From assembly GCF_900128445.1 (NCBI RefSeq), contig NZ_LT671417.1, forward strand, positions 558,001 to 622,000: a DNA stretch of 64,000 nt, read 5' to 3'. This stretch comes from Thermophilibacter provencensis (GTDB lineage: Bacteria > Actinomycetota > Coriobacteriia > Coriobacteriales > Atopobiaceae). The translations under genes were made by a program, and so were the position numbers. Each line of letters begins with the position of its first letter. Position 1 is the stretch's first letter. Below, in pieces: positions 33,621 through 48,282 of this stretch. The notes beneath the pieces were generated by a model. It made no database searches. It was not told the origin of the DNA and worked only from the letters and a program-made list of their open reading frames with translations.

Positions 33621-33722
33621 TGCAACTCCCGTGGTCGCGCGTCAGTCAATCAGCATATAAATGTAGCACTCGACGGGCGACGACCCGGGACCGATTTCAG
33701 ATATGTTCGCCGACGGGGGGCC

Positions 33723-34985
33723 CTACACCACCTGAAAGACGAAGAAGTCCAGGTAGTGGCTTTCGGGGAAACCCCAGAGGATGGGGTGATCGGGCGCCTG
33801 CTGACGCTCCTCAACCTGCTTGAGCTGTACGTTTGCCTGATGTGCGGCCTCGGCGATCGCCTTGGCGAGAAGGTCGCGCGTCATGAAGTGGGAGCAGCTG
33901 CAGGTGGCGAGGTAGCCACCGCGGGGCAGCAGGCGCAGGGCCTCGAAATTGATCTCCCGGTAGCCGCGCGCAGCGTGCGAGACGGTGCCGCGGCTCTTGG
34001 TGAATGCCGGCGGGTCCAGCACGATGAGGTCGAACGGGCCGCCCTCCTCGCGCAGCCGGGCGCGGTTCCGGGCGAGCTCGGGCAGGTAGTCGAGGACGTT
34101 CGCGCAGGTGAAGTCCATGCGGCCATCTAGGCCGTTGAGGCGGGCGTTCTCGTGCGCGAGTTCGATCGCGGTCTCACTCACGTCGACGCACCGCACGAAC
34201 TCCGCGCCACCCGCCGCCGCGTTCAGGCCAAAGGGGCCCACGTGGCAGAAGCAGTCGAGCACGCGCCGGCCGGCCGCAGCCTGGCGCACGGCGCGGCGGT
34301 TGTACTTCTGGTCGAGGAAGAAGCCGGTCTTTTGGCTGTTCTCCAGGTCAAGATTAAAGCGCAGACCGTTCTCGCGCACCATAAGGCGCGCGGTCTCCGG
34401 TGCGGGCAGCCCGTCCCACCAGCCCTTGTACTGCGGCAGCCCCTCCTTGGCGCGCGCGGCGCCATCGTTGCGCTCATAGACGGCGTCGATCTTCTCGCCG
34501 TCCGCGGCGAGGGCGTCTACGAGCGCGCGATACACGACGGGGCGCAGGCGCTCCATGCCCACGGTGCCCACCTGCGTTACCAGCACGTTCTCGTAGCGGT
34601 CGGCCACGAGGCCCGGCAGACCGTCGGCCTCGGAGAAGACCACGCGGCAGCAGGTGGTGTCCGGCTCGGCGCCGGGCAGGCCGCGACCTCCCAGGGTCGT
34701 GCGGCGGTGCTGCCAGGCCCACGCGATGCGGCGCGCCCAGAAGGCGTCGTCAAAGCGGTCGTTGGCGTTGCGGCTCACGATGCGCACGCGAATCTTTGAC
34801 TCCTGGGAGAGCAGTCCAGCGCCCTGCCACGTGCCGTTCTCCTCGAAGACGTCCACGATCGAGCCGTTTTCCGCGCGCTCTGCGGTGATGACCTCGCCCT
34901 CGAAGACCCACGGGTGACCACCGGCGAGCGATCGCGCCGCCTTGCGGGTGACTGTGACGCGCGGGTACGGACGCGCCTGCTTCAT
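33723..34985 (-). CDS. RlmI-type rRNA cytosine-C5 methyltransferase
   Basis: A 420-residue SAM-dependent methyltransferase. A PUA-like domain (about 1-80; RKAARSLAGGHPWVFEGEV) precedes a Rossmann methyltransferase with VLDCFCHVGPFGLNAA (SAM site), NPP-like VLDPPAF and TCSCSHFM. The family methylates 23S rRNA cytosine 1962 (RlmI). ATG at 34985 is chosen because GGAGGA lies four bases upstream; a longer in-frame version would read through the family C repeat. It uses a different promoter from the helicase gene further upstream. Confidence 0.85.
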   Translation of the reverse strand: MKQARPYPRVTVTRKAARSLAGGHPWVFEGEVITAERAENGSIVDVFEENGTWQGAGLLSQESKIRVRIVSRNANDRFDDAFWARRIAWAWQHRRTTLGGRGLPGAEPDTTCCRVVFSEADGLPGLVADRYENVLVTQVGTVGMERLRPVVYRALVDALAADGEKIDAVYERNDGAARAKEGLPQYKGWWDGLPAPETARLMVRENGLRFNLDLENSQKTGFFLDQKYNRRAVRQAAAGRRVLDCFCHVGPFGLNAAAGGAEFVRCVDVSETAIELAHENARLNGLDGRMDFTCANVLDYLPELARNRARLREEGGPFDLIVLDPPAFTKSRGTVSHAARGYREINFEALRLLPRGGYLATCSCSHFMTRDLLAKAIAEAAHQANVQLKQVEERQQAPDHPILWGFPESHYLDFFVFQVV

Positions 34986-34997
34986 ACGTCCTCCTGT

Positions 34998-35067
34998 ATG
35001 TGAATTGGGGACAGTCCCCAATTCACATAAATGATTTGTGCAAATTGGGGACTGTCCCCAATTTGCA
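34998..35067. repeat. Family C double hairpin, copy 1
   Basis: Two adjacent hairpins: ATGTGAATTGGGGAC pairing with its complement around A35013, and TGCAAATTGGGGAC around T35053. They are separated by a short AT-rich linker. An almost identical pair lies at 48218-48282. It begins a few bases upstream of the ribosome binding site of the methyltransferase and ends next to the helicase stop codon. Confidence 0.9.
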
Positions 35068-35069
35068 GG

Positions 35070-36332
35070 CTAGTAGTGACGGCCGTAGCGGCCACCGGCG
35101 ATGCCGCGGCCGCGGCTGCGCGAGCCGGCGAACATCGTGCGCGTGGACCGCTTGGTCGGGCGGTCTGCCTGCGGGACGATGCGTCCGGAGTCATAGGTGA
35201 AGCCGTCGAGGTCCCACACCGGCACGAGCTTCTTGGTGAAGTACTCGATCTCGCGCAGGGGGCTGATCTCGTCCGGCGCCACGAAGGTGTAGGCGTGGCC
35301 GGTGGCGCCCGCGCGGCCCGTGCGGCCGATGCGGTGGACGTAGTCCTCGGGGTCCATGGGGACGTCGAAGTTCACCACGGCGTCGATGCCGGAGACGTCG
35401 ATGCCACGGCTCATGACGTCGGTTGCTACAAGGACCTGGACCTTGCCCTCGCGGAACCTCTCGAGCGCGCGCTCGCGGGCCTTCTGCGGACGGTCGGCGT
35501 GCATAACGTCGACCTTGACGCCGGCGGCCTTGAGCGTCTTGGAGACGTCGTCCACGCGGTGCTTGGTGCGGCAGAAGACCAGCACGCGCTCGGGCTTCTC
35601 CCCCGCTGCGCCGCCGGTGTCCAGGAGGGCGCGCAGAAGCTCGGTCTTCTGGCCCTGGGTGATTGGGCAGAGGTGCTCCTCCACGGTGTCCGCGGTCTCT
35701 CCGACGCGGGCGATCTCCACGGTGGCGGGGTCGGTGAGCAGCGCGTCGATGGTGGACTTGATCGACGGCGGGATGGTGGCCGAGAAGAGCAGCGTCTGGT
35801 GCTCGGCGGGCAGCGCGTGCATGATGCGGCGCACGCTCGGCCAGAAGCCCATGTCCAGCATGCGGTCCGCCTCGTCGAGCACAAGGACCTTGACCTGCCT
35901 CAGGCTCACGTGGTTGTGCTCCATCAGGTCGATGAGGCGTCCGGGGGTGGCGACGAGCAGGTCGCAGCCGCGCTCGAGCTCCTTGATCTGGCGGTCGAAC
36001 TTGGCGCCGCCCATGACGATGACCGCACGCTGGCCGGTCTTCTCGCATACCACGGAGACGACCTTCTCGATCTGAGCCGCGAGCTCGCGCGTGGGCGTGA
36101 CCACGAGCGCGTGCGGGCCCTTGCCCTTGGCGCCGGCCACGAGCTGCAGTGCGGGCAGCGCGAAGGCCGCGGTCTTGCCCGTGCCCGTCTGAGCGGAGGC
36201 CACGATGTCACGGCCTGTGAGGACCACGGGGATGGCCTGCTCTTGGACGGGGGTGGGGGTGGTGAAGCCGAGGGCGTCCACCCCGGCGAGAATCTGCTCG
36301 TTTAGCCCGAGCTCGGCGAATGTAGTAGTCAT
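35070..36332 (-). CDS. DEAD-box RNA helicase
   Basis: A 420-residue ATP-dependent RNA helicase. Motifs in order are Q motif (FTTPTPVQEQAIP), AQTGTGKT, PTRELA, TPGR, VLDEADRMLD, SAT, the C-terminal FCRTKHRVDDVS, RGIDVSG and HRIGRTGRAG. It ends with an RGR-rich basic tail (about 395-420) for RNA contact. ATG at 36332 starts MTTTFAELGL; longer in-frame versions overlap the divergent metA gene. Proteins like this assist ribosome assembly or mRNA turnover, often in the cold. Confidence 0.95.
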   Translation of the reverse strand: MTTTFAELGLNEQILAGVDALGFTTPTPVQEQAIPVVLTGRDIVASAQTGTGKTAAFALPALQLVAGAKGKGPHALVVTPTRELAAQIEKVVSVVCEKTGQRAVIVMGGAKFDRQIKELERGCDLLVATPGRLIDLMEHNHVSLRQVKVLVLDEADRMLDMGFWPSVRRIMHALPAEHQTLLFSATIPPSIKSTIDALLTDPATVEIARVGETADTVEEHLCPITQGQKTELLRALLDTGGAAGEKPERVLVFCRTKHRVDDVSKTLKAAGVKVDVMHADRPQKARERALERFREGKVQVLVATDVMSRGIDVSGIDAVVNFDVPMDPEDYVHRIGRTGRAGATGHAYTFVAPDEISPLREIEYFTKKLVPVWDLDGFTYDSGRIVPQADRPTKRSTRTMFAGSRSRGRGIAGGRYGRHY

Positions 36333-36405
36333 GGGGCTAAGTATAAAGCATGGGCGGCTTGGCGTGGGTATACTGGACAGGTTAAGCCGCAGAAACGGAG
36401 TCCGC

Positions 36406-37380
36406 ATGCCCATCAACATCCCCGACGGCCTGCCCGCCAAGACCATCCTCCAGCAGGAGCGCATCTTTGCGCTTGAGGAGGAGGTGGCCAGCCACCAGGA
36501 GATCCGCCCGCTGCGCGTGGCGATCTTGAACCTCATGCCCACCAAGATCGAGACCGAGACCCAGATCCTGCGCCTCATCTCCAAGTCCCCGCTGCAGGTG
36601 AGCTGCGATTTCATGCGCGTCTCCACCCACGAGTCCACGCACGTCTCGCAGGACCACCTGGTCAAGTTCTACGACACGTTCGACTCTTTCCGCGATAAGA
36701 ACTACGACGGCCTGATCATCACTGGCGCGCCCGTGGAGCACCTCGAGTACGAGGAGGTCGACTACTGGGACGAGTTCTGCAAGATCGTGGACTGGAGCCA
36801 GGAGCACGTGTTCTCGACGATGTTTTTGTGCTGGGGCGCGCTGGGCGCCCTCTGGCACCTCTACCAGATTCCCAAGCGCCAGCTCGGCGCCAAGCTCTTC
36901 GGCGTCTTCAAGCAGCGCCTCTGTGACGAGTACAGCTTCCTCACCAACGGCTTTGACGAGGTGCACTACATGCCGCACAGCCGTCACGCTGCCATCGACA
37001 CCGGCGAGCTGGCCAAGCACCCCGAGCTCTGCACGCTCTCCGAGGGCTTCACGAGCGGCCCGTCACTGCTGGCTACGCGCGACTTCCACGAGGTCTATGT
37101 GACCGGCCACTTTGAGTACGGCCGTGACACCCTTGCCGATGAGTTCTGGCGCGACTTCCACAGGGGCCTCCCCATCCGCGTGCCTGAGAACTACTTCCCG
37201 GACGACGACCCCGAGAAGCAGCCGCTCTTCACCTGGCGCGCGCACGCCAACCTGCTGTATCGCAACTGGCTCAACTGGGTCTACCAGATGACGCCGTATG
37301 ACCTGGACGAGATTCCGGCCGCGATTGCCGATCTGCGCGCGCGGAGCACGGCCGCGACCGGTCACGTGGACAAGTTTTAG
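36406..37380 (+). CDS. metA: Homoserine O-acetyltransferase, MetA family
   Basis: A 324-residue MetA-family enzyme that activates homoserine for methionine synthesis. The nucleophile is Cys142 (FLCWGA), with His/Glu in HFEYGRD. At position 111 this protein has Glu (GAPVEH). In characterised MetA proteins Glu111 goes with acetyl-CoA and Gly111 with succinyl-CoA, so O-acetylation is predicted. ATG 36406 is preceded by AACGGAG, and TATACT at 36369-36374 is a candidate -10. No SAM riboswitch fits in the 73 bases to the helicase start. A weak hairpin (GCGGC/GCCGC) follows the stop. Confidence 0.92.
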   Translation: MPINIPDGLPAKTILQQERIFALEEEVASHQEIRPLRVAILNLMPTKIETETQILRLISKSPLQVSCDFMRVSTHESTHVSQDHLVKFYDTFDSFRDKNYDGLIITGAPVEHLEYEEVDYWDEFCKIVDWSQEHVFSTMFLCWGALGALWHLYQIPKRQLGAKLFGVFKQRLCDEYSFLTNGFDEVHYMPHSRHAAIDTGELAKHPELCTLSEGFTSGPSLLATRDFHEVYVTGHFEYGRDTLADEFWRDFHRGLPIRVPENYFPDDDPEKQPLFTWRAHANLLYRNWLNWVYQMTPYDLDEIPAAIADLRARSTAATGHVDKF

Positions 37381-37403
37381 GCGGCTTTTGGGGCCGCTCC
37401 TTC

Positions 37404-37623
37404 TGCAGTTGGCGGGATAGTGCGAAACAATCGGCGCTCCGTCTGCAATCAGCGGGATAGTGCGAAGGGTTTTCAGCGGGGTGCCGAGTAGGCGCCTCGC
37501 CGTTTCCTGCGAAAACGCGGATGTCGAGTGGCCGAAATCGCCTGCTTGAGCAAAAATGCCTTCACACTATCCCGCTGACTGCACGTCCGCTGGTCGATAT
37601 TTCGCACTATCCCGCTCATTGCA
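37404..37623. repeat. Family H: four-unit inverted repeat array
   Basis: Four 24-base units with core GCGGGATAGTGCGAA. Two are direct (37404-37427, 37444-37467) and two inverted (37560-37583, 37600-37623). Start-to-start distance is 40 bases in both pairs, and 92 bases separate the pairs. It fills the 315-base gap between metA and the next gene, which holds no other gene. Confidence 0.85.
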
Positions 37624-37695
37624 AGCACACGCTCCGCGCATCATGATGGTGGACGGGGAGGGCCTCGTCCCGTCGTACGAGAAAGGTGATGCGCC

Positions 37696-38136
37696 ATGTC
37701 CAATGAGCGTCTGACAGAGGAGCTGCTTGAGCGCCTGCTGGCGTCGTCGACGCCGGAGGCCTATCTCGACGAGGGCCTGACCGTCGACCGCGAGCTTCCC
37801 GACTACCTCTTCCAGCTGCTTGGCGAGAAGGGCATGAAGCGCTCCGAGGTGGTGCGCGCCTCGGGCCTCAACAGCACGTTCGTCTACGACGTCTTCAACG
37901 GCGACAGCCGCCTTGGGCGCGACAAGGCCATCATGCTGGCACTTGGCATGGGGTGTACCCTGCGGGAGGCCCAGCGGCTGCTGCGCCTTGATGGCGTCTC
38001 CGAGCTCTGGGCGAAGAACCGTCGCGACGCCGTGATCATCTGGTGCGTGGAACACGGCTATAGCCGAACTCAGACGGATGACGAGCTGTACCGCCTAGGC
38101 GAGAAGACCCTGCTGGGCACCGGCCCGCTCCGTTAG
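37696..38136 (+). CDS. HTH protein upstream of the Ser/Thr kinase
   Basis: A 146-residue protein with a central XRE-like helix-turn-helix (about residues 35-95; LLGEKGMKRSEVVRASGLNSTFVYDVFNG) and a C-terminal segment about 50 residues long (LWAKNRRDAVIIWCVEHGYS). The N-terminal 30 residues are acidic and helical. It precedes the membrane Ser/Thr kinase by about 120 bases in the same direction. Comparable XRE-kinase neighbours exist in Firmicutes and Coriobacteriia, suggesting a signalling role, which is inference. GAAAGGTGATG precedes the ATG. Confidence 0.7.
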   Translation: MSNERLTEELLERLLASSTPEAYLDEGLTVDRELPDYLFQLLGEKGMKRSEVVRASGLNSTFVYDVFNGDSRLGRDKAIMLALGMGCTLREAQRLLRLDGVSELWAKNRRDAVIIWCVEHGYSRTQTDDELYRLGEKTLLGTGPLR

Positions 38137-38166
38137 CCGCCGGCGCGCCAGACGCACGCCGCTCAT

Positions 38167-38181
38167 TCAGTTGCGAACTGA
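38167..38181. promoter_or_regulatory. Operator candidate TCAGTT-N3-AACTGA
   Basis: The palindrome TCAGTTGCGAACTGA, followed by GGAAT, recurs at 39875-39889 with the same flanks (AT before, GGAAT after). It lies about 73 bases upstream of the kinase start. Confidence 0.6.
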
Positions 38182-38185
38182 GGAA

Positions 38186-38200
38186 TCAGTCCATGACTGA
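38186..38200. promoter_or_regulatory. Second operator candidate TCAGTC-N3-GACTGA
   Basis: TCAGTCCATGACTGA is a second palindrome of the same type, 19 bases downstream of the first. TATAAC at 38202-38207 directly follows and could be a -10 element, so a bound protein would block the promoter. Confidence 0.55.
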
Positions 38201-38253
38201 ATATAACCTTTGCTATTGTTGGCTGAGTGTGGGGACGAGCGGATGGCGCTGAG

Positions 38254-39837
38254 GTGAACGACGAGCAGGTCATGCATGCCATGGGCATAGACGACGCATA
38301 TCACGTGGAGCGCGTGCTTGCCAGCGGAGCCGGTGGCACAACGGAGCTCGTGACCTTGGACGGGTCCGGCCCGTTTGTTCGGAAGCGCATCCCCGCCAAG
38401 CTGGCGCGCCGCGGCGTGTGGGCGACGCTCGCAGAGTGCGACTCGGCCCGCCTGCCACGCGTCGAGGCAACCTACGAGATGCCCCGAGAGTTCGTTGTGG
38501 TGTGCGACTACGTTCCAGGAGAGAATCTCGAGCAGATGGTCGCCTCCCGCGGGCATCTTGACGAGAAAGGCGCGCTGCAGATTGTGGCCCAGCTTTGCGA
38601 GGCGGTCGGCGCCCTTCACGCGCGCGGGATCATCCACCGCGACATCTCGCCCGCGAACGTAATCGTGGCCGCGGACGGCGCGCACCTCATCGACCTGGGG
38701 ATTGCTCGCTTTAGGGTGGAGGGCGCCACGCGCGATACCACTCAGCTTGGCACGTACGGATTTGCGTCTCCCGAGCAGTATGGTTTTGCCCAGACCGACG
38801 CCCGGTCGGACGTCTACTCGCTTGGCCGCATGCTCGGCTACCTGCTCACAGGCGTCATGCCGGCAGAGGGCGAGAAGTACGAGGCCGCGCTCGAGGACGA
38901 CTCTCTGATCTCGCCGGACCTGCGTGCGGTCATCCAGCGCGCAAGTGCGATGGAGCCGAGCGCGCGCTACCAGAGCGCCGAGGCCTTTGCGGCGGCGCTG
39001 AACGGCAAGGAGGTTGCCGAGCCAGAGCCGCCTGCCGACTCGGTGGAGCCGCCGGCGTTTGAGCCTGCGCCGCGGATGCGCAACTGGGTGAAGGTTCTTC
39101 TCGCCGTGATGGCGGCCGTGGCGTTCGTGGCTGCGGTGGCAATTCTCCTGACGCAGACGTTCGGGGCTGGCGAGAAGGGCGTGGACGCTCCGCCCACGGA
39201 CGAGCCTGCGGCGAGCGTGACCACGGATGACGCGCCCGCCGGGGGCGACGCGCCCGCGACTGAGGCCGTTGACCTCGAGATTGTCGAATCCGGGTGGTCA
39301 GTGGACTCGCAGGGCTACGTGCATTACGCGGTCGGGCTGCGAAACAACGGGGACGCCACTATTGATAACCCCGGGTATACGGTGACTGGTCGCGATGAAT
39401 CTGGAAGAGTGGTCTTCTCTGACGAGCAGCGTGTTTTTGCTGTTCCGGCTGGTGAGACGATCTATTTTGGGTCGTTGACCGGAAACGGCACCGCGCCGAC
39501 CTCCGTTGACTTTTCTCTCATGGGCGTCGATCAGGATCAGATCAGGCCCGAGATGGACGTACCCGTCTTCTCCGTACTCGACGCCGGCATCGTCGAGGGC
39601 ACCCTCGGGGGCTTTAGCGTCGTGGGAGAGATTGAGACTGAGCACGCGGGCGATGAGAGCATCGGCATGGGTGACGCTCTGGTTGCCGTGGTTCTCCGCG
39701 ATGCGGGCGGCAACATCGTTTATGGCGCGCTGACCTTTGTGGGACGTCCTGACGAGGGCGAGTCGACCCCGTTTGAGATTAACGTCGCCGATGACGTGGA
39801 TTACGCGACATATGAGGTGTACACGCAGGCGTGGTAA
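38254..39837 (+). CDS. Membrane Ser/Thr protein kinase
   Basis: A 527-residue Hanks-type kinase. The kinase domain (about 1-255) is apparently active: Lys44 (FVRKRI), HRDISPANV with Asp130, DLGIARF and GTYGFASPEQYG. A transmembrane helix (about 283-305) follows a Pro/Glu linker. The outer region (about 320-527) holds an Ig-like FxLYD-type domain with Asp/Ala-rich stretches, not PASTA repeats. GTG at 38254 is used; an earlier GTG at 38227 is possible but lies close to the predicted promoter. It is probably induced through the TCAGTY palindromes and co-regulated with the next gene. Confidence 0.82.
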   Translation: MNDEQVMHAMGIDDAYHVERVLASGAGGTTELVTLDGSGPFVRKRIPAKLARRGVWATLAECDSARLPRVEATYEMPREFVVVCDYVPGENLEQMVASRGHLDEKGALQIVAQLCEAVGALHARGIIHRDISPANVIVAADGAHLIDLGIARFRVEGATRDTTQLGTYGFASPEQYGFAQTDARSDVYSLGRMLGYLLTGVMPAEGEKYEAALEDDSLISPDLRAVIQRASAMEPSARYQSAEAFAAALNGKEVAEPEPPADSVEPPAFEPAPRMRNWVKVLLAVMAAVAFVAAVAILLTQTFGAGEKGVDAPPTDEPAASVTTDDAPAGGDAPATEAVDLEIVESGWSVDSQGYVHYAVGLRNNGDATIDNPGYTVTGRDESGRVVFSDEQRVFAVPAGETIYFGSLTGNGTAPTSVDFSLMGVDQDQIRPEMDVPVFSVLDAGIVEGTLGGFSVVGEIETEHAGDESIGMGDALVAVVLRDAGGNIVYGALTFVGRPDEGESTPFEINVADDVDYATYEVYTQAW

Positions 39838-39874
39838 GGCGCGGCGGTTCGGCTGCCTTGACCGTTCACGTAAT

Positions 39875-39889
39875 TCAGTTGGCAACTGA
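39875..39889. promoter_or_regulatory. Operator candidate, third copy
   Basis: TCAGTTGGCAACTGA with the same AT/GGAAT flanks as the copy upstream of the kinase. It lies 72 bases upstream of the ATG at 39947, matching the distance at the kinase gene. Confidence 0.6.
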
Positions 39890-39904
39890 GGAATTGCTTC
39901 AGCC

Positions 39905-39940
39905 CTCCTTTCAGAATGGGCGTCAACCTTCTGAAAGGAG
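39905..39940 (+). promoter_or_regulatory. Hairpin that contains the ribosome binding site
   Basis: CTCCTTTCAGAA (39905-39916) and TTCTGAAAGGAG (39929-39940) are perfectly complementary over 12 bases with a 12-base loop. The right arm contains the AAAGGAG ribosome binding site of the ATG at 39947. It could repress translation or serve as terminator of the kinase transcript. Confidence 0.6.
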
Positions 39941-39946
39941 TTTGGA

Positions 39947-40480
39947 ATGGGCGCGAAGAACGTGGAGACGAAACGCGTTGCGGTTATCGCGACGATTATC
40001 GCGGCGGCTCTGTTAGTAGTGGCGTTCTTCCTGCCGTATGCGGCAGGAACGCAGGAGTTCCGCGATGGACTGGACTTAATGTCCGCCAATCCCTACTCCG
40101 AGACTCTGGGCATGAGTAATGAGGATCTCACCGACATCTCGCTCTTCGAGTACGCGCAAATCTACGGCTCGTCTATTGATCTTGGTATGGGCGAGACGTT
40201 TGCGATGGTTTACGTTCCGCTGACGGTGGCGCCGGCGGTGCTCGGCGCGCTGACGCTGCTGTTCGCGCTGCTGCGCAAGCCGATTCCCGCGATTGTGTTC
40301 TCTGTGTTTACGGTGGCCATGACGCTCCTTTTGAGTTGGGACTTCGAGGACCGCGGCGTTATCCCCAGCGACAGCTACGACTGGGGCGTCGCGAAGTGGG
40401 TGTATCTGCTGGCGGGCATTGTTGTGGTTGCATGCGCGGTGTGGCAAATCGTGCTGCGCAGGCAGTCAAAGAAGGCATAG
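39947..40480 (+). CDS. Four-helix membrane protein of unknown function
   Basis: A 177-residue protein with hydrophobic segments at about 10-31, 81-105, 107-127 and 146-166. An extracellular loop of about 50 residues between the first two helices is polar and acidic (MSANPYSETLGMSNEDLTDISLFEYAQIYG). The tail is basic (RRQSKKA). I do not recognise the family. It is preceded by an operator palindrome like that of the kinase and by a hairpin over its ribosome binding site. It lies 27 bases upstream of the lipoprotein gene, in one operon. Confidence 0.65.
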   Translation: MGAKNVETKRVAVIATIIAAALLVVAFFLPYAAGTQEFRDGLDLMSANPYSETLGMSNEDLTDISLFEYAQIYGSSIDLGMGETFAMVYVPLTVAPAVLGALTLLFALLRKPIPAIVFSVFTVAMTLLLSWDFEDRGVIPSDSYDWGVAKWVYLLAGIVVVACAVWQIVLRRQSKKA

Positions 40481-40507
40481 GGAGCTCGAGCAAGAGGAGT
40501 GGCAGTC

Positions 40508-41563
40508 ATGAAGCGGATAATTCGGACCTTGTGCGCAGCTGCAATGGTTGTGACGCTTGCGGCATGCGGTGGCGGCGGTGATGGCGGGGAACCCGCTCCC
40601 CAGCAAGCTCCCTCGAGCGAATCCGAGAGCACTGCTCCAGCAAATAGCCTCGAGGAGATAATCCAACGCGCCCAGGCTGACTTCGTCGAAACAAGTCAGA
40701 AGCTGCTTGACGAGCAGGAGAAGGTGTTCTCTGAGGTTGGAGACGGCTACGAGGACTACCTTGCCAACATCGACATGATTCAGGCGTGGTACGAACTGTC
40801 CATTAGCGAGACGGAGGCACTTGGCGAGCGCGCTGTCGAGTATGGGCGCGAATACTACAAGGCGGTTGTCGACAACGTTGACGTGACGGACGATCGCGAG
40901 CTCGACAAGGCGACCGAGGAGTTCTACGACACCGTTTATGAGGACGCGTACGACGATTATTACGACGCCATCTACGAGGATGCATACGATGAAATGTATG
41001 ACACGTACTACGATGGCATTATTCATGATGCGTACGACACGACCCCGTACGACGAGTGGTCAGATACGTCCAGCGATGCATATGAGGCGTACTCTGACGC
41101 TCGAAGTGACGTCTATGAGGCAATTTCCGACGGCCGTTCCGATGTGTACAGCGACTACTCCGATGTGCGTAGCGCTTTTTACTCAAATGACTTTGATGTA
41201 GAGGGAATCTTTGCCCCCGTACAGACGAATGAGGGGGGCAAGGAGAGTGATGCGGCAGAACCCGTGGCTGATTCCTCTGAAGACGGTGCTGTGGATGCCT
41301 CGGCTGTTGATCCGACGTTCAAGGAGACAATGGACGGGTATGAGGCGTTCTTCGGCGAGTACGTCGAATTCATGAGGGCATATGAGGCTGACCCCACTTC
41401 GGTTGAGCTCATTGGACAGTACTCAGATTTGATGACAAGGTATACGGAGACCATAAACGCGCTGGGGGAGATCGACGAAGACTCCCTGACGCCGGCCGAT
41501 GCCGCATATTATGCCGAAGTGACTGCGCGCATATATGAGATGTTGGCCGAGGTTGGACAATAG
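40508..41563 (+). CDS. Lipoprotein with Tyr/Asp repeats
   Basis: A 351-residue predicted lipoprotein. The lipobox LAAC gives a lipidated Cys20. The central part has a tetrapeptide rhythm Y-[DE]-x-x from about Tyr140 to residue 180, followed by three 11-residue repeats (192-202, 203-213, 214-224; pattern YEAxSDxRSDV). The C-terminal region (about 255-351) is helical and predicted to be coiled-coil-like. It is strongly acidic and lower in GC than average. Such 4- and 11-residue spacing places Tyr on one helix face. Function unknown. ATG 40508 follows AAGAGGAG. It belongs to the same operon as 39947. Confidence 0.7.
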   Translation: MKRIIRTLCAAAMVVTLAACGGGGDGGEPAPQQAPSSESESTAPANSLEEIIQRAQADFVETSQKLLDEQEKVFSEVGDGYEDYLANIDMIQAWYELSISETEALGERAVEYGREYYKAVVDNVDVTDDRELDKATEEFYDTVYEDAYDDYYDAIYEDAYDEMYDTYYDGIIHDAYDTTPYDEWSDTSSDAYEAYSDARSDVYEAISDGRSDVYSDYSDVRSAFYSNDFDVEGIFAPVQTNEGGKESDAAEPVADSSEDGAVDASAVDPTFKETMDGYEAFFGEYVEFMRAYEADPTSVELIGQYSDLMTRYTETINALGEIDEDSLTPADAAYYAEVTARIYEMLAEVGQ

Positions 41564-41565
41564 GG

Positions 41566-41781
41566 CTAGCAGTCGATTAGGCTGCGCGCCGGGACATCAA
41601 GAGCTTTTGCGATGCGGATAAGGACGTCAATGCCAACGTCAGCCGTTCCTGTCTCGATTTTCCAGAGATAGGAACGGCTCGTGCCCGACATGAGCGCGAG
41701 CTGTCGCTGAGATATGCCGCACCGGGTGCGCTCGGCGCGTATTCGGGCACCGATGGCCCGCTTCTCTTCCGCATTGTCCAT
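41566..41781 (-). CDS. Small XRE-family regulator
   Basis: A 71-residue single-domain helix-turn-helix protein: IGARIRAERTRCGISQRQLALMSGTSRSYLWKIE is the recognition region, and VLIRIAKALDV ends the fold. It converges on the Tyr-repeat lipoprotein gene (stop codons two bases apart) and diverges from the DUF4839-like lipoprotein gene. A 16-bp perfect palindrome lies between the divergent starts and is a natural operator. The short length and low complexity fit an autoregulator. Confidence 0.8.
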   Translation of the reverse strand: MDNAEEKRAIGARIRAERTRCGISQRQLALMSGTSRSYLWKIETGTADVGIDVLIRIAKALDVPARSLIDC

Positions 41782-41815
41782 GCGGGAAAGGATAGAAGCG
41801 GTACCATTGGCTCAT

Positions 41816-41831
41816 GCTCTCTATAGAGAGC
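41816..41831. promoter_or_regulatory. Perfect 16-bp palindrome between divergent genes
   Basis: GCTCTCTATAGAGAGC lies 35 bases upstream of the HTH start and 17 bases upstream of the lipoprotein start. It is a candidate binding site for the small XRE protein. Confidence 0.55.
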
Positions 41832-41847
41832 CGATTCATACGGATGA

Positions 41848-43134
41848 ATGGAGCGAATGTTGTCTAGCTTCGGGTATCGGGCCATTCGTGGCCTGTCATG
41901 CATGCTCCTTACGGCGGCCATGGCCCTATCTCTTATTGGCTGCTCGGAAGGTCAGGCGGAGGCAGAGTCCAACCGAGGGGATGAATCAAGCGTATCCATT
42001 ACCGTTGAGTGCGAGTCAAATATCTTATTGAGCAAGTACGACATTGCCGTTTATGTTGACGCGGACTCTTTGGGGACTCTTGACCATGGGACAACCAAGA
42101 CATTTGAGGCGACCCTGGCCGACGGGGACCATGAGCTGAGATTCGCAAAAGAAGATGACGGAAACGTTGATGGATCGGTGGGGATATCCATCAACGGTGA
42201 TACGTCGCTCAAATATCGAGTTAAGTGCACCTCTTCCCAAGTAGAGATTGAGCAGATTGATTCGGTTTCCCCGCCGATTTCGTCCGACGAGGCATCGGCG
42301 AAATATCACGATGAGCTCTATCGCGCATTCGAAGACGCGGGATTCACCAATATAAGAGAAGAAGAGTTGCGTGATTTGACGCCGGACCAAAGTGGCAAGA
42401 ACTGGCTTGTGGGGAGCATCTCCATTGGGGGCGTGGAGAGCTTCAGCGTGCAGGATGCGTTTGCCGCTGATGATGAGGTCGTAATTAGCTATCACGTTCT
42501 CGCGGACCTCAATCCTCCCGCCTCTTCTGATGAGCTTGAAGGAATGGGCTACGAAAACGTTGTTGAGCTGTTTGAGGGCGCCGGATTCATCAATGTGACG
42601 ACTGCGTTGACGAGTGCTTCCGGAGTTGGCGGAACGGTCTCCTCCGTGAAGATCGGAGGCGTTCTCGGGTCATCTGACTTCACAACAAGTGATTCATTCT
42701 CCTTTGACGCGGGAGTTGAGATTACGTATTACGAAGGCGCTTCAACATCGGACGAGCCGACGCAGCCCTCTACCGAGGAGGTCCCCGAAGAGGACCTCAG
42801 CTCGCTGCTCTCCTCAAGCGATACTGATGCCAGTTGGTTTAGCTCTGCGTATCGGGGCAGGACCATCACCTTTGATGGCTGGGTTGCCAACATGGTGAAC
42901 CACGAAAACTATGACACCCGTTACGACGTACTTATCCTCGCAGGAGATAACGGCGTAAGTCCAATGACAGGGCCAAACTTCAGACTCACAGACGTGAACT
43001 TCTATGACATGAACGTGACAAACGCTGACTCGCTCCGCGGAGGCGACAATATCACCATTACTGCAATCGTCGGCGAGTACAACTCAACAGCGGACTGGCT
43101 TGAGCTTGACCCGGTGTCTATTTCGGTTCGTTAA
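41848..43134 (+). CDS. DUF4839-like lipoprotein
   Basis: A 428-residue predicted lipoprotein (lipobox LIGC, Cys32 from this start). After a Ser/Glu-rich segment come an Ig-like domain (about 50-135), a region with two copies of a motif like YENVVELFEGAGFINV (about 150 and 230), reminiscent of PASTA folds, and a C-terminal DUF4839-like domain (about 325-428; FDGWVANMVNHENYDTRYDVLIL, GPNFRLTDVNF). ATG 41848 is uncertain; ATG 41857 is equally possible. It is at the edge of the signalling cluster and has lower GC. Function unknown. Confidence 0.65.
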   Translation: MERMLSSFGYRAIRGLSCMLLTAAMALSLIGCSEGQAEAESNRGDESSVSITVECESNILLSKYDIAVYVDADSLGTLDHGTTKTFEATLADGDHELRFAKEDDGNVDGSVGISINGDTSLKYRVKCTSSQVEIEQIDSVSPPISSDEASAKYHDELYRAFEDAGFTNIREEELRDLTPDQSGKNWLVGSISIGGVESFSVQDAFAADDEVVISYHVLADLNPPASSDELEGMGYENVVELFEGAGFINVTTALTSASGVGGTVSSVKIGGVLGSSDFTTSDSFSFDAGVEITYYEGASTSDEPTQPSTEEVPEEDLSSLLSSSDTDASWFSSAYRGRTITFDGWVANMVNHENYDTRYDVLILAGDNGVSPMTGPNFRLTDVNFYDMNVTNADSLRGGDNITITAIVGEYNSTADWLELDPVSISVR

Positions 43135-43227
43135 GGAGCCCATGATGTATTGCCCAAGTGTTGAGGGCCTTCGAAGTCGATTGTGCAGAACTCGATTCTG
43201 CCTTTGAGGCTATGCGCCGGCAGTGTC

Positions 43228-43268
43228 AATGCGGCCTGAGTCGCCCATAGAGCGACTCAGGCCGCATT
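43228..43268 (+). terminator. Probable terminator of the DUF4839-like gene
   Basis: A perfect 17-bp stem with a seven-base loop, about 95 bases past the stop codon. No U tract follows, so it is an atypical terminator or a repeat. Confidence 0.5.
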
Positions 43269-43545
43269 GGACGGAAGATGATATTTGCCAGCCCGGCCAA
43301 TTCGAGCCCAAAAAGCTTGGCGGCTATACACGAGTGGCTCTCCGATCTCCCGGAGCGCCACACGGACGGCGGCGATCTTGACGACGCGACGAACATGGCT
43401 GCAGAGGGTTCGGGCTCGTAATCAAGCCCTTTATCGGGAACGGCCGCGCGCGTTGGGACAACGCTCGGCGCATCGGTTTCGGAGAGCGTTCAAGAGTCGC
43501 TCCCTCGGTGGACATTGATCCCTAGAGTTCCAGTCGACGAAAATG

Positions 43546-43581
43546 CGGCCGGGCCCGAACACTCACGTCCGGGCCCGGCCG
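43546..43581 (-). terminator. Terminator of the fused flavoprotein gene
   Basis: CGGCCGGGCCCG (43546-43557) pairs perfectly with CGGGCCCGGCCG (43570-43581). On the minus strand CATTTTCG follows. Confidence 0.7.
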
Positions 43582-43583
43582 AT

Positions 43584-43610
43584 GTGCAAAAGTGACTGTC
43601 CCTTTTGCAC
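43584..43610. repeat. Family A hairpin, single unit
   Basis: Arms GTGCAAAAG and CTTTTGCAC around TGACTGTCC, the inverse orientation of the core GGACAGTCA. It lies one base from the stop codon of the following minus-strand gene. Confidence 0.85.
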
Positions 43611-43611
43611 G

Positions 43612-46191
43612 CTAGCAGGTGGCGCCGCCGATGATGGTCTTGCTGAGGATGGCGTCCTTGTCGATGGGCGCGGTCAGCAGCTTGTCCTGCACGTAGTCAA
43701 AGCCGAGGCGCGCCACGGTGTCGGCAAAGCGCTCGCCGCTTAGGCCCCCGTCGCGGAAGAAGAGGATCGCGCGCTCCACGAGGTCCATGACCTCGTCCTC
43801 GCTGGTGAAGATCTTGTCAAGCGCTCGGCCGTGCGCGACCTTCTTGCCCCAGCGCCCGCCAATGTAGACCTTATAGCCCGTAAGCCCCTCGGTAACGGCG
43901 CCGAACGGGCACGCGCCCACGCAGCGGCCGCAGTGGTTGCACGCGGATTCGTCGATGGTGATCTTGCCGTCCGGCCCGATCTGCGCGTCGCCCATCGGGC
44001 ATGTCTTCACGACCTGGCAGACCTTGCAGGCGCGGCACTTCTCGAGGTCGACCTGCGGCACGCGCTGGCCAACAATTCCCAGGTCGTTGAGGTCGGGCTT
44101 GACGCACATGTTGGGGCAGCCGCCCACGGCGATCTTGAACTTGTGCGGCAGGTCCACGCCGTGATAGCCCACGTAGAAGCGCTCGTGCAGCTTCTCGGAG
44201 AGGTCGAAGGTGTCGATGAGGCCGTACTGGCAGGTGGTTCCCTTGCAGCTCACCACCGGGCGCACCTTGGAGCCGGTGCCGCCGGCGTCCAGGCCGCGGT
44301 CCTGGAGAAAGCCGATGCACGCGTCGATGCTGTCGTACTTCACGCCCTGGATCTCCAGCGTGAGGCGCGTGGTCATCGTGACCTCGCCGGAGCCAAAGCG
44401 CTCGGCGGCCTCGGCCACGGCGCGCTGCTCGTCTACCGTGATCTTGCCGTTGCGCGTGATCACGCGGATGTTGAAGACGTCGTCGTAGCGCTTGTCCAGC
44501 AGGCAGCCCAGGCCCTTGAGGCGCTTGATCTCGGCGGCGGGGAGCTTCTTGCCCGCCGGGCGAGGCACGCGGACCTCGTTGAACGTCACGCCGCCCTCGA
44601 GCACGCGCGTCGCTGTGTATCCGGCGGCCTTGAGGCGGTTCTGCGCAAAGTAGCCGCGCTTGCCCTTGGCGCACACCAGCAGGAGCTTCTCGCCCTTCTC
44701 GTGACCGGGCAGCCCGTCCGGGCCGATTCTGGTGAGGTCCACCCACTCCGCGCCGGGAATCGTGGGCGCGGGCAGCACGTCGATGACGTGGTAGTCTGCG
44801 GCGGCGCCGGCGGCGTACTCGGCCGGGGTGAAGCTCTCGAGCTCGCCGGCGAGCTTGTTCTCCAGGATGTAGCCCGTTGTGACCAGCGGGTGAATGGCGG
44901 TCGAGAAGGGCGGCGCATAGGAGAGGTCCATCAGGTCCAGGTCCTCCACGCGCGCCTTCTGGTAGAGCGCGGTCACGACGACGTCCACGACCTTGTCCAC
45001 GGCGCCGGCGCCCAGCACCTGCACTCCGAGCAGGCGGTGCGTTGCGCGGTCCGCGAGGAGCTTCACGCAGAAGCTCGAGGAGCCGGGGTAGTAGTGGGCC
45101 TTGTCGTCCACTACGGAAACCACGCTCACCGGGTCAAAGCCCGCCTCGCGCGCCGCGGTCTCGGTGAGTCCGGTGCGGCCGCCGTTCAGCGTGGGCAGCA
45201 GGCGCACCACGCCGGTGCCGAGCGCGCCGGGGTAGGGGGTCGGCGTGCCCGTGAGCGTGCGGGCGATTGCGCGGCCGGCGATGTTGGCCGTGGACCCCAT
45301 GGCGCTCCAGAACGGGCGGCCGGTGATGGCGTTCTTGACCTCGGCGCAGTCTCCGGCGGCGTAGACGTCCTCCAGGTTGGTGGCACCGAACTCGTCCACG
45401 ACCACGCAGCCCTTGTCGAGCGCGATTCCGGAGCCCTCGAGCCACGCGGTGTTGGGCCTGATGCCAATGGAGAGAATCACGAGGTCCGCCGGCAGCGTCC
45501 CCGCGCCGGTCTCCACGCCCTCGACCCTGCCGCTGCCCGTGATGGCCTTGAGCGGGCATGACGTCATGACGCGCATGCCGGCGGCCTTGAGCTGGCGCTG
45601 AGCGAAGCCGGCCATCTCGGGGTCAAAGACGTTGGGCAGAATCTGCGGCAGCGCATCGATCACGGTGACGGAGAGGCCGCGTGCGAGCAGGTTCTCGGCC
45701 ACCTCCAGGCCGATGAAGCCGGCGCCCACGATCACTGCGCGGCGCGCCCCGGCGTCGGCGTAGTCACGGATCGCCTCGGCGTCGTCGGGCGTGCGCACGG
45801 TGAAGACGCCGGGTAGGTCGGTTCCGGGGATGCCTGCGGGCACGAGCGGCGATGCGCCGGTGGCAATGACCAGCCTGTCGTAGGGCTCGGCGTGCTCGGA
45901 GCCGTCCTTCTCGCGAACCGTAACCTCGTGCGCGGCGGCGTCAAGCGCCACGGCCTCCACGCCCGCGCGCACCTCCGCGCCGGTGAGCCCCTCATAGGCG
46001 GCCGGCGTGTTGACGATGAGCTCGCCGCGCGTCTGGATGCCCCCTCCGATGTAGTACGGCAGGCCGCAGCCGGCGTAGCTGATGTCCTCGCTCTTGGTCA
46101 CAACCACGACCTCGGCCGAGCGGTCGCACCGCTTGAGCTTGGCCGCGACCTTGGTTCCGGCGGCCACGCCGCCTACGATCAGGTACCTCAT
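43612..46191 (-). CDS. Fused CoA-disulfide reductase/rhodanese/sulfite-reductase-like/ferredoxin
   Basis: An 859-residue fusion. The N-terminal flavoprotein (about 1-450) has GGVAAGTKVA, the redox Cys42 in YAGCGLPYYIG and ATGASPL, and resembles CoA-disulfide reductase/NADH oxidase. A rhodanese-like domain (about 460-540) has Cys507 (CAKGKRG). A siroheme-protein-like part (about 560-705) has Cys649, 654, 692 and 696, close to but one residue shorter than the C-x5-C...C-x3-C pattern. Two [4Fe-4S] motifs (CRACKVCQVVKTC, CNHCGRCVGAC) follow, then about 90 residues. It probably handles sulfane sulfur or sulfite with a flavin and clusters. Substrate unproven. Confidence 0.8.
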   Translation of the reverse strand: MRYLIVGGVAAGTKVAAKLKRCDRSAEVVVVTKSEDISYAGCGLPYYIGGGIQTRGELIVNTPAAYEGLTGAEVRAGVEAVALDAAAHEVTVREKDGSEHAEPYDRLVIATGASPLVPAGIPGTDLPGVFTVRTPDDAEAIRDYADAGARRAVIVGAGFIGLEVAENLLARGLSVTVIDALPQILPNVFDPEMAGFAQRQLKAAGMRVMTSCPLKAITGSGRVEGVETGAGTLPADLVILSIGIRPNTAWLEGSGIALDKGCVVVDEFGATNLEDVYAAGDCAEVKNAITGRPFWSAMGSTANIAGRAIARTLTGTPTPYPGALGTGVVRLLPTLNGGRTGLTETAAREAGFDPVSVVSVVDDKAHYYPGSSSFCVKLLADRATHRLLGVQVLGAGAVDKVVDVVVTALYQKARVEDLDLMDLSYAPPFSTAIHPLVTTGYILENKLAGELESFTPAEYAAGAAADYHVIDVLPAPTIPGAEWVDLTRIGPDGLPGHEKGEKLLLVCAKGKRGYFAQNRLKAAGYTATRVLEGGVTFNEVRVPRPAGKKLPAAEIKRLKGLGCLLDKRYDDVFNIRVITRNGKITVDEQRAVAEAAERFGSGEVTMTTRLTLEIQGVKYDSIDACIGFLQDRGLDAGGTGSKVRPVVSCKGTTCQYGLIDTFDLSEKLHERFYVGYHGVDLPHKFKIAVGGCPNMCVKPDLNDLGIVGQRVPQVDLEKCRACKVCQVVKTCPMGDAQIGPDGKITIDESACNHCGRCVGACPFGAVTEGLTGYKVYIGGRWGKKVAHGRALDKIFTSEDEVMDLVERAILFFRDGGLSGERFADTVARLGFDYVQDKLLTAPIDKDAILSKTIIGGATC

Positions 46192-46333
46192 GGCGTTCCT
46201 CTCCGTTGGCGCCGCCCCTCGCGGCGCACATTCCCATGGTAGGACCGCGCATCGAGGTTTTTATCGGCAATCGGCGAGGAGCACGCTCAACTCGGCCTAT
46301 CATGCTGCTCAGGCGAGAAGAACGGGAGGTCCC

Positions 46334-47131
46334 ATGCCCCGCACGGCAGTTTTCAGCGACATCGACGGAACGTTGCTCAACTCCGCCCATCAGGTGACGA
46401 CGCGCACGCGCGACGCCATCCGCGCGGTGCAGGCGGCGGGCGTGCCCTTTGTCATCGTGACGGCCCGCGGTGTCTCAGGGACCTATCCGCTCCTCGAGCA
46501 GCAGGACATCTCATGCACGGTGGTCACCTACAGCGGCGGCGTCATCATGGACGAGGGGCGCAACGTCATCCACCACCACGGGCTCACGCGCGCGCAGGCC
46601 CAGGAGGTCGTCGACTTTGCCGAGGCCGAGGGGCTGGACATGACCTGGAGCGCCTACTCCTTCGAGGACTGGGTGGCGCCCGACCGCGCCGACCCGCGCC
46701 TGCTCCAGGAGGAGCGCATCGTGATGGCCGAGGCGCGCGAGGGCACCATCGCCTCCATAGGGCGCGACGAGGTGCAGAAGATCCTCTGCCTCTGCACGCC
46801 CGGCAGCACCAAGGAGGTCGAACGCCGCCTCAAGGGGCGCTTCCCCGAGTTTGCCATCGCCATCTCCTCAGAGACCCTCATCGAGGTCATGCCCGCCGGG
46901 TCGAGTAAGGCGGGCGCGGTCCACACCCTCTGCGATCTCTGGGGGATTGATCCGGCCGACGCCCTCGCGTTCGGAGACAACTACAATGACCTTCCCATGC
47001 TCGACGCTGTCGGCCACGGCTACCTCATGGGCAACGCGCCGGCGGAGCTCCTGGCCCGCGCATCGCTCGTCGCCCCCACAAACGACGAGGACGGCGTGGC
47101 CCGCGTGCTCGAGCGCCTTGGCCTCATATGA
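46334..47131 (+). CDS. Cof-type HAD hydrolase
   Basis: A 265-residue HAD-superfamily phosphatase. Motif I is FSDIDGTLL near residues 7-15, motif II IVTARG, and motif IV GDNYNDLPML near residues 215-224, with Lys in SSKAGAV. Length and cap placement fit the Cof/YwpJ-type sugar phosphatases. Substrate unknown. GGGAGG precedes ATG 46334. Its TGA stop codon (47129-47131) forms the first three bases of a family B repeat. It is divergent from the fused flavoprotein. Confidence 0.88.
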   Translation: MPRTAVFSDIDGTLLNSAHQVTTRTRDAIRAVQAAGVPFVIVTARGVSGTYPLLEQQDISCTVVTYSGGVIMDEGRNVIHHHGLTRAQAQEVVDFAEAEGLDMTWSAYSFEDWVAPDRADPRLLQEERIVMAEAREGTIASIGRDEVQKILCLCTPGSTKEVERRLKGRFPEFAIAISSETLIEVMPAGSSKAGAVHTLCDLWGIDPADALAFGDNYNDLPMLDAVGHGYLMGNAPAELLARASLVAPTNDEDGVARVLERLGLI

Positions 47132-47155
47132 CAAAGGTGACAGGGTCAACTGTCA
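47129..47155. repeat. Family B unit spanning a stop codon
   Basis: TGACAAAGGTGACAGGGTCA followed by ACTGTCA. The first TGA is the stop codon of the HAD gene. It is a half palindrome, with inner TGAC-AGG-GTCA. The ribosome binding site of the next gene starts six bases later. Confidence 0.88.
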
Positions 47156-47174
47156 CAAACGAAAGGAGAACCCC

Positions 47175-47537: not shown

Positions 47538-47538
47538 C

Positions 47539-48222: not shown

Positions 48223-48282
48223 ATTGGGGACAGTCCCCAATTCACATAAATCATTTGTGCAAATTGGGGACTGTCCCCAATT
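48218..48282. repeat. Family C double hairpin, copy 2
   Basis: First hairpin 48218-48231/48233-48246; second 48262-48271/48273-48282. The linker and nearly all bases match copy 1 at 34998-35067, but the second hairpin has lost its outer pairs. It overlaps the last codons of the CbiK-like gene and ends three bases before the ribosome binding site of the next gene. Confidence 0.9.

Follow-up and report, generated by a model that had tools for sequence, protein, structure and literature searches.

The block of genes described here lies between positions 37696 and 43134 of a 64,000-nt stretch of DNA (the window, to which all coordinates refer) taken from a genome of 2.63 Mb. All six open reading frames that an earlier note had assigned to it were found. 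That note had read them as a single module on the basis of shared operators, operon spacing and lower GC content, each of which held only in part. Spacing of the operon kind (27 nt) was seen between the genes for a four-TM protein and a DUF6591 lipoprotein but not elsewhere, the remaining intergenic gaps being 66-117 nt or the gene ends being convergent and 2 nt apart. GC content was lower from the ectodomain of the kinase onward (0.53-0.60), but not in HTHa (0.651) or in the catalytic half of the kinase (0.671), against a window mean of 0.649. A common operator is present at two promoters but not at the second HTH gene, whose palindrome differs. At the end of the block is a perfect 18-bp hairpin with a 7-nt loop (43227-43269), terminator-like in form and a putative terminator of the block. 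No tRNA was found in window positions 30000-50000, and no Rfam match at the gathering score in positions 34000-47000.

The first gene (37696-38136, plus strand) encodes HTHa, an XRE/Cro-C1-like DNA-binding protein of 146 amino acids, recognised from its reading frame and from profile matches. The Cro/C1 match is weak and below cut-off (Pfam HTH_26, E = 0.0032, 18.1 bits against 22), and a methyltransferase model matches about as weakly (E = 0.0028); a profile made from 43 HTHa-family sequences matches C.AhdI at 5.8e-4 and an immunity repressor at 9e-4. It is followed by a membrane Ser/Thr kinase (38254-39837, plus strand; GTG start, ATG at 38281 possible) with a catalytic domain at about 38281-39015 and one hydrophobic, putatively transmembrane segment at about 39076-39132. 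The kinase matches Pkinase (Pfam, E = 5.7e-26), its model has PknB as best fold match (Z 27.3, 2.7 Å over 231 residues), and its HRD and DLG residues are intact; the earlier note had called it active-looking.

The claim that the kinase lacks PASTA repeats and has an Ig-like domain outside the cell was also supported. It scored 118.8 bits against NF033483, the NCBIfam PASTA kinase equivalog, and did not reach the cut-off of 450. Its ectodomain (39259-39834, plus strand) gave no PASTA match at an E limit of 10, although the filters of HMMER already discard most hits with E over 0.1, and a set of 26 homologous ectodomains gave none with E of 0.1 or less. Because a fold search with the whole kinase was filled by kinases, the ectodomain was modelled separately. 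AlphaFold gave a confident model (pLDDT 93.3, pTM 0.88) with 13 strands divided between two domains, which would form two tandem Ig-like beta-sandwiches. Its best fold match, a moderate one, was a domain of beta-galactosidase (Z 9.9, 2.2 Å, 88 aligned residues) with GH2 enzymes next; the matched domain is presumably their Ig-like domain. Foldseek returned weak matches (best E 9.1e-5, TM 0.25), and no solved structure was related in sequence to the ectodomain at E up to 1. Of 26 ectodomains, 14 were matched by the FxLYD model at E<=0.1, with 5e-8 as the best value; that of the window kinase scored 19.7 bits (E = 5.6e-4), under the cut-off of 23.

Downstream on the plus strand are genes for a 177-residue protein with four hydrophobic segments (39947-40480), in agreement with its description as a four-helix protein, and for a lipoprotein (40508-41563; GTG at 40499 possible) with a lipobox recognised by eye and a C-terminal DUF6591 domain (Pfam, 4.7e-28). 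The latter is the Tyr-repeat lipoprotein of the earlier note, and its Tyr/Asp-rich stretch has 21 Tyr in 140 residues. Two further genes diverge from each other: HTHb, an HTH_3 regulator (41566-41781, minus strand; Pfam, 4.5e-14) and second of the HTH proteins noted, and a lipoprotein confirmed as DUF4839-like (41848-43134, plus strand; Pfam, 4.5e-31). Two stretches of this lipoprotein looked PASTA-like by eye, and neither had a Pfam PASTA match at an E limit of 10.

The operator palindrome, TTCAGTTGNNAACTGAGGAA, has exactly two occurrences in the whole 2.63 Mb genome when two mismatches are allowed, O1 before the kinase gene (TTCAGTTGCGAACTGAGGAA, 38166-38185, plus strand) and O2 before the four-TM gene, ahead of the surface-protein genes regarded as cargo (TTCAGTTGGCAACTGAGGAA, 39874-39893, plus strand). 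Adjoining O1 is another palindrome, TCAGTccatgACTGA (38186-38200, plus strand), which the consensus of 18 kinase promoters identifies as a feature of kinase promoters in the genus. After O2, with a spacer of 18 nt, comes CAGAAT (39912-39917, plus strand), a putative -10 element that is kept in cargo promoters (consensus of 29 strand hits). Since the operator is placed 3' of the HTHa gene in the genus, regulation of HTHa itself is not required there. A paralogous locus (C3:951258) has no copy of TTCAGTTGNNAACTGAGGAA, and in seven aligned paralogue leaders a conserved CTCTGCTAnGAT directly before the kinase start was the only feature shared.

HTHb has a perfect and conserved palindrome of its own, GCTCTCTATAGAGAGC (41816-41831), between it and the divergent gene, and in two genomes (G095 and G098) HTHb and its divergent cargo are kept at a locus that yielded neither an HTHa nor a kinase match. 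Among the HTHb loci, L042 and L049 lack GCTCTCTATAGAGAGC at one mismatch, and L049 has a two-mismatch form. We therefore reject the six-gene unit and divide the block into two neighbouring modules: module 1 (37696-41563) with HTHa, the PknB-like membrane kinase, the four-TM protein and the DUF6591 lipoprotein, and module 2 (41566-43134) with HTHb, the DUF4839 lipoprotein and the palindrome between their genes. Of the earlier interpretation, the single module has to be given up, while the conserved neighbourhood, the operator and the non-PASTA, Ig-like ectodomain model are supported; the sensing role and the self-regulation that it proposed are inferred.

The operator is nearly restricted to HTHa-kinase loci. 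In 31 genomes of the genus there were 51 near-matches of TTCAGTTGNNAACTGAGGAA (control, none), 49 of them at such a locus and two elsewhere; 44 shared a contig with HTHa and were no more than 11 kb from it, and five were on contigs holding the cut-off remainder of a locus (G092 and G112). All 22 genomes with a type-1 HTHa (E<1e-60) had an operator site, and none of the eight without one did (G087, G088, G095, G096, G098, G099, G103 and G104). Across the order, sites were found in 67 of 395 genomes (control, 3). Outside the genus, 61 of 70 sites had an HTHa-family gene no farther than 6 kb away, where about 1% would be expected; the other nine were at 9.5 kb (one), at 153 kb (one), on contigs with no detected HTHa (six) and in a genome with no HTHa match (one, G032). 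When the fetched regions were scanned at a threshold of at least 15 of 18 positions, sites were present in 19/19 loci of the genus (4 control hits) and, outside it, in 10/10 loci with an HTHa at least 65% identical (1 control hit); they were present in 8 of 15 loci at 50-64% identity (seven had none; 1 control hit) and in 1 of 17 below 50% (no control hits). The genomes are related, and these counts are not independent of one another. The operator tracks the HTHa gene across the order, and, judged by distribution, the link between the two is strong.

The earlier note had proposed asking whether the genes co-occur in other genomes. The full gene set of the block was seen in the genus only here and in G097, but the HTHa-kinase head is conserved among relatives with variable cargo, so that a conserved neighbourhood of HTH, kinase and surface-protein genes does exist. 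HTHa matches were present in 112 of 140 genomes of the family and 232 of 329 of the class (E<=0.001, some weak); in the phylum outside Coriobacteriia they were weak (best 1.4e-7) and mainly limited to the HTH part. Every one of the 61 fetched regions had a kinase match no more than about 2 kb from HTHa, and the pair was also found on a faecal contig and in Listeria; Listeria innocua, too, has a match to the HTH protein. A mobile element was considered and rejected on plasmid and phage records and on the tRNA and Rfam scans given above: HTHa matches occurred in three plasmid and six phage records, all below 60% identity. All three plasmid entries come from Listeria and, at 0.39, 0.48 and 2.9 Mb, are probably chromosomal; the phage records carry no annotation.

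No SPFH domain was found by Pfam in the six proteins of the block, whereas 7 of 19 loci of the genus encode an SPFH-domain protein; cargo in relatives comprises an SPFH-SHOCT protein and a DUF6591 membrane protein, and in type-B relatives an SPFH-domain protein stands beside membrane-protein genes. The kinase genes are mosaic, with catalytic halves 100% identical joined to ectodomains 59% identical, or 71% with 93%, and the ectodomain and cargo are swapped between strains with the head retained. (L044 is absent from the kinase alignment: owing to a gene insertion, its kinase fell outside the range selected.) Empty sites also occur. Co-evolution of ectodomain and cargo as partners was rejected, as similarity of the two showed no general association over 153 pairs from 18 loci (the partial rank correlation was 0.07, a value reached in 981 of 5000 permutations); of the 19 kinases, L040 was excluded, as its contig breaks off after the kinase gene. 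Direct recognition of cargo by the ectodomain gains no support from this result. In the four pairs with the most similar cargo (>=0.78), the ectodomains were at least 91% identical.

The exchange of ectodomains and cargo around a constant head, together with the empty sites, might indicate that these parts vary as targets of phage, bacteriocins or host immunity, the block being an island of antigenic variation or immunity. Exchange by itself, however, cannot separate selection by recognition from selection by signal, and what PADLOC returned for the kinase was confined to its kinase domain and for HTHb to generic HTH models, with nothing for the other four proteins of the block; we think this account improbable. 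More improbable still is a HipBA-type toxin-antitoxin pair or an anti-phage kinase system of the PD-T4-6 or Stk2 kind. HipBA-type pairs have a small XRE protein beside a kinase and palindromic operators, as seen here, the HTHa profile matches HipB weakly (E = 0.0093) and in PADLOC, a library without curated cut-off, the kinase is matched by PD-T4-6 models, at best with 3e-38. That best match, however, spans residues 75-262, the kinase domain only, and the kinase is PknB-like in sequence and fold (Pkinase/PknB matches, with no HipA model among the nine Pfam and 25 of 27 NCBIfam matches listed), is apparently anchored in the membrane with an ectodomain, and shares its operator with surface-protein genes.

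A simpler account, which we hold to be unlikely but take more seriously than either of these, is that HTHa simply represses or activates the genes of a variable surface-protein hotspot around it. The kinase gene would then be just one of its targets, and the kinase would signal elsewhere, to the cell wall or division, rather than to HTHa. XRE-type proteins often act without a kinase, the operator precedes kinase and cargo alike, and phosphorylation of HTHa by the kinase is a step that we infer. Against this, the invariable pairing in the 61 regions despite widely differing cargo, and its recurrence in Listeria and on the faecal contig, argue for a functional link between HTHa and the kinase.

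Among known systems, PASTA kinases (PknB of Mycobacterium, PrkC/Stk1 of Bacillota) have the same fold and the same order of catalytic domain, one TM segment and ectodomain; unlike them, the window kinase has two modelled Ig-like sandwiches outside, and its gene stands with an HTH gene and with cargo that shares its operator. The Listeria cluster has an HTH protein (40% identity) and a membrane kinase (35%) homologous to the window pair, but their genes are divergent, the kinase gene is followed by one for a DUF5067 lipoprotein, and the kinase, as judged by eye, ends in a hydrophobic multi-segment C-terminus with no window-like ectodomain. No four-TM or DUF6591 gene was among 19 annotated neighbours. 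This kinase is probably lmo0618, deletion of which is reported to have lowered intracellular replication (PMC3091722). The phage-shock operon pspA-ydjGHI of Bacillus subtilis, with the SPFH protein YdjI and YdjG/H, resembles the type-B relatives, although not the window block, which has no SPFH gene; it has a Sigma-W promoter, and the consulted passages mention no HTH-kinase pair (PMC8581546). In open-access papers we found no description of the HTHa-kinase pair, and none with DUF6591.

The reading that we favour, with a probability of about 0.55, is that module 1 is an envelope-signalling regulon, in which the kinase senses the state of the envelope and, with HTHa, controls its own gene and an exchangeable cargo. 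HTHa, very likely the operator-binding protein, is predicted to bind TTCAGTTGNNAACTGAGGAA just 5' of a -10-like element in kinase and cargo promoters. The two-domain Ig/FxLYD-like sensor would detect a change at the surface, upon which the PknB-like catalytic domain inside would phosphorylate HTHa, a plausible substrate, or a partner. Residues T7 and T138 of HTHa, which hardly vary among 43 aligned homologues, are the first candidate sites. Operator occupancy would be altered, and the kinase and surface cargo (here the four-TM protein and DUF6591 lipoprotein, in relatives the SPFH-SHOCT protein and DUF6591 membrane protein) would rise or fall together. That the signal is envelope state is plausible from the type of cargo, SPFH proteins in relatives and lipoproteins, and by analogy. 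More tentatively, and with somewhat less confidence than we place in that reading, the pair may represent an undescribed HTH/Ser-Thr-kinase family, widespread in Coriobacteriia and extending to Bacillota. It would be a modular receptor kinase in which HTH protein, operator and catalytic domain stay fixed while surface cargo and sensor are replaced, the sensor by recombination close to the ectodomain border, and a single regulatory core would thereby be tuned to different envelope signals.

To our knowledge, bacterial Ser/Thr receptor kinases are known mostly from PASTA kinases, and their route to transcription and the signals of non-PASTA ectodomains are largely open. In the present case the kinase comes with a neighbouring HTH gene, a defined operator and a few surface genes, so that signal, kinase and output could be tested with one reporter. 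The natural mosaics with identical catalytic halves and different ectodomains, such as the L055 and L056 types, are ready-made swaps for finding the signal of the sensor. HTHa relatives are common in Coriobacteriia, and the probable kinase of the Listeria relative has a reported deletion phenotype. The HTHa-kinase-operator module of this gut bacterium looks like an unstudied form of modular envelope sensing.

All six open reading frames that the earlier note had grouped into one envelope signalling module are present within 37696-43134. The XRE/Cro-C1-like protein HTHa (146 aa, 37696-38136) has a Cro/C1 HTH-like middle part; the similarity of HTHa alone lies under curated cut-offs, and a profile of 43 sequences of its family matched C.AhdI at E=5.8e-4. 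It is followed by a kinase (38254-39837; Pkinase 5.7e-26) with one hydrophobic transmembrane segment, the modelled catalytic part of which matched PknB (Z 27.3, 2.7 A, 231 residues), by a protein with four hydrophobic segments (39947-40480; no Pfam match over cut-off) and by a lipoprotein that combines a stretch rich in Tyr and Asp (21 Tyr in 140 residues) with a C-terminal DUF6591 (4.7e-28). HTHb is encoded on the minus strand (41566-41781), and the last gene specifies a lipoprotein ending in DUF4839 (4.5e-31). The lower GC claimed for the block was seen from the kinase ectodomain onward (0.53-0.60; window 0.649) but not in HTHa (0.651) or the catalytic half of the kinase (0.671), which are ordinary. 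A further low-GC stretch (0.53-0.59) lies at 27-32 kb of the window and presumably encodes a DeoR-type regulator, class-II aldolases and a PTS IIC-like transporter.

HTHa and the kinase co-occur, as a module would imply: a kinase match was found within about 2 kb of HTHa in 61 of 61 fetched regions, which are part of all HTHa hits, and in one of these (L093) the two are divergent. HTHa matches were present in 112 of 140 family genomes, in 232 of 329 class genomes (E<=0.001, some weak; sample requested at 90% completeness) and in 72 of 396 genomes drawn evenly from the phylum, where strong matches fell only within Coriobacteriia and the rest were weak and mostly HTH-only. The own genome codes for a second HTH-kinase pair at C3:951258 (identity 49% for the HTH, 38-40% for the kinase); at this locus (L003, C3:950.5-953.1 kb) the C-terminus of the kinase contains three hydrophobic segments, and immediately upstream is a gene for a DUF4190/DUF4352-like protein. 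Some loci in other genera have another HTH of this family after the kinase, namely L062, L063, L065, L068, L069, L074 and L098, where a small lipoprotein or membrane protein comes next, and L073, L075 and L094; some such loci have nearby what we take to be a dnaK-type chaperone operon. A faecal contig filed as phage carries a related HTH (31%) and kinase (33%), with a lipoprotein gene further along. Listeria monocytogenes has an HTH gene of 40% identity, divergent from the gene for a 380-aa kinase, with a DUF5067 lipoprotein next after the kinase; for the kinase, this length agrees with the description in excerpts of PMC4379056 and fits the kinase being Lmo0618. Excerpts of another study report that ten Listeria deletions, including that of lmo0618, each lowered intracellular growth (PMC3091722).

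The shared operators that had been proposed were confirmed for two genes: TTCAGTTGNNAACTGAGGAA occurs once before the kinase and once before the four-TM gene, with no further site in the 2.63 Mb genome at <=2 mismatches (a third match row is the second site on the opposite strand). Across 31 genus genomes, CAGTTGNNAACTGAGGAA at <=1 mismatch gave 51 matches and the reversed control none. It can be seen that 44 of the 51 lie on the contig of HTHa, less than 11 kb from it, and five are on contigs bearing the broken-off remainder of a locus (in G092 the kinase is cut by the contig end; one in G112 carries cargo, the variable surface-protein genes beside the HTHa-kinase head, and the CoA-reductase flank). 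The remaining two (G084:C1:130524, L113; G101:C19:4092, L114) are an identical string away from the locus, within near-identical hairpin-like stretches. Eight genus genomes without type-1 HTHa (match at E<1e-60) had no matches. In other genomes the operator, with near or full symmetry, also lies between divergent cargo genes. The cargo promoter consensus reads.TCAGTTG.CAACTGAGGAA, 12 unconserved positions, then cCtT.tcAgaATG (29 strand hits, including one displaced kinase promoter, L044), and a second half-palindrome immediately 3' of the operator is common to 18 kinase promoters.

At <=1 mismatch, TTCAGYTGNCARCTGAGGAA matched in 67 of 395 order genomes (control, 3 hits). Outside the genus 61 of 70 sites lay less than 6 kb from an HTHa-family gene, about 1% being expected, and outside the family 29 of 34, although the genomes are related and sites are not independent events. 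When the fetched regions were scanned (site, >=15/18 positions), the share of loci with an operator dropped with HTHa identity, from 19/19 in the genus to 10/10 at >=65%, 8/15 at 50-64% and 1/17 below 50% (48, 25, 9 and 1 strand hits; control 4, 1, 1 and 0). At L061 and L066 a site stands in front of HTHa itself. Because HTHa is the regulator present at all these loci, HTHb being found at only 9 of 19 in the genus, this distribution suggests that HTHa very probably binds the operator.

HTHb appears to belong elsewhere. G095 and G098 retain HTHb, a DUF4230 gene and sequence resembling the DUF6591 proteins of the locus while lacking the HTHa-kinase pair at the locus; HTHb is therefore part of another module, and the single six-gene unit has to be given up. 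The palindrome upstream of HTHb, GCTCTCTATAGAGAGC (41816-41831), occurs at <=1 mismatch in exactly one copy in each of 12 of the 31 genus genomes (the G112 copy has a mismatch; the control gave a single hit, read on both strands, in another genome). It is immediately upstream of HTHb in 11 of these and placed to the locus contig only in G105; the HTHb loci L042 and L049 lack it at this threshold. The gene divergent from HTHb differs among loci (DUF4230, others). For the DUF4839 lipoprotein, long matches in the genus were found in G000 (the own genome), G097 and G112; G008 also gave a long match, of 35% over residues 18-300, and matches of any length occurred in 18 of 140 family genomes.

The relatives bear the names Olsenella and Thermophilibacter or are Atopobiaceae metagenome bins. 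In the genus the block is flanked by genes that we take to encode MetA and CoA-disulfide reductase. In G087, G096, G103 and G104, without type-1 HTHa, the gap between these is 123-918 bp and contains no module genes, that is, an empty site. G088 has the MetA gene and no CoA-reductase match in the 14 kb fetched, and a search for MetA in G099 gave no match. Most genomes without type-1 HTHa carry a diverged type-2 HTH at other sites. Between the MetA-like gene and HTHa (37395-37623), AGCGGGATAGTGCGAA occurs four times, two direct and two inverted, against 0.01 expected at <=2 mismatches, and the close relative G097 also has a single exact copy in front of HTHa; this may be a repeat or a mobile element of palindromic type. 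Genes presumed to encode DUF4143-like ATPases occupy varied positions at L042, L043, L044, L046, L047, L054 and L057; at L044 the gene sits between HTHa and the kinase.

For the 19 kinases compared within the genus, that of the window and those of 18 loci, pairwise identity averaged 79% in the catalytic domain and 53% in the ectodomain, and over the 171 pairs the two were barely correlated (r=0.21). The catalytic domains of L055 and L056 are identical and their ectodomains 59% identical, DNA identity going from 95-99% in the catalytic part through ~75-87% at the juxtamembrane region to ~60%; L051 and L052 are similar (98% and 53%). L039 and L052 show the opposite pattern (71% and 93%), HTHa and the catalytic part being 65-87% identical in DNA and the stretch between the ectodomain start and the profile end, 1.8 kb further, 88-97%; a single BLAST match extends across the cargo to +5.0 kb. 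L042 and L053 have a common ectodomain (75% and 93%) and differ directly 3' of it. These patterns argue that head, ectodomain and cargo would have been exchanged separately; a general match between ectodomain and cargo was looked for and not found.

Modelled alone from 26 sequences, the ectodomain forms two beta-sandwiches (pLDDT 93.3, pTM 0.88). The best structural neighbours were beta-galactosidase and GH2 enzymes (Z 9.9, 2.2 A, 88 residues), matching chiefly the first domain; Foldseek alone gave weak matches. FxLYD matched 14 of the 26 ectodomains (best 5e-8) and PASTA none, in agreement with the claim of a non-PASTA kinase. Among the 19 genus loci (L039-L056, L097), some regions of which end early so that counts are minima, the four-TM gene was found at at least 10, an SPFH protein at 7, HTHb at 9 and a protein resembling the DUF6591 lipoprotein or membrane protein at 16. 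The SPFH cargo (Band_7_1 plus SHOCT) adjoins a DUF6591 membrane protein (1.2e-67). In the rest of the family this position is taken by DUF5067, DUF6591, BLIP/DUF3862-like or tRNA_anti-like proteins, and by some without any match.

We favour reading module 1, from HTHa to the DUF6591 lipoprotein, as a regulon built on an HTH protein and a receptor kinase, in which sensor and cargo can be exchanged, and of which we found no description in the open-access literature, the sole literature covered. Its ectodomain and operator set it apart from PASTA kinases, and its regulator from the phage-shock operon. That the kinase signals to HTHa is slightly favoured. It is slightly more likely than that that the signal is the state of the envelope, since in the B. 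subtilis phage-shock response, according to excerpts of PMC8581546, YdjI-type SPFH proteins act with membrane partners.
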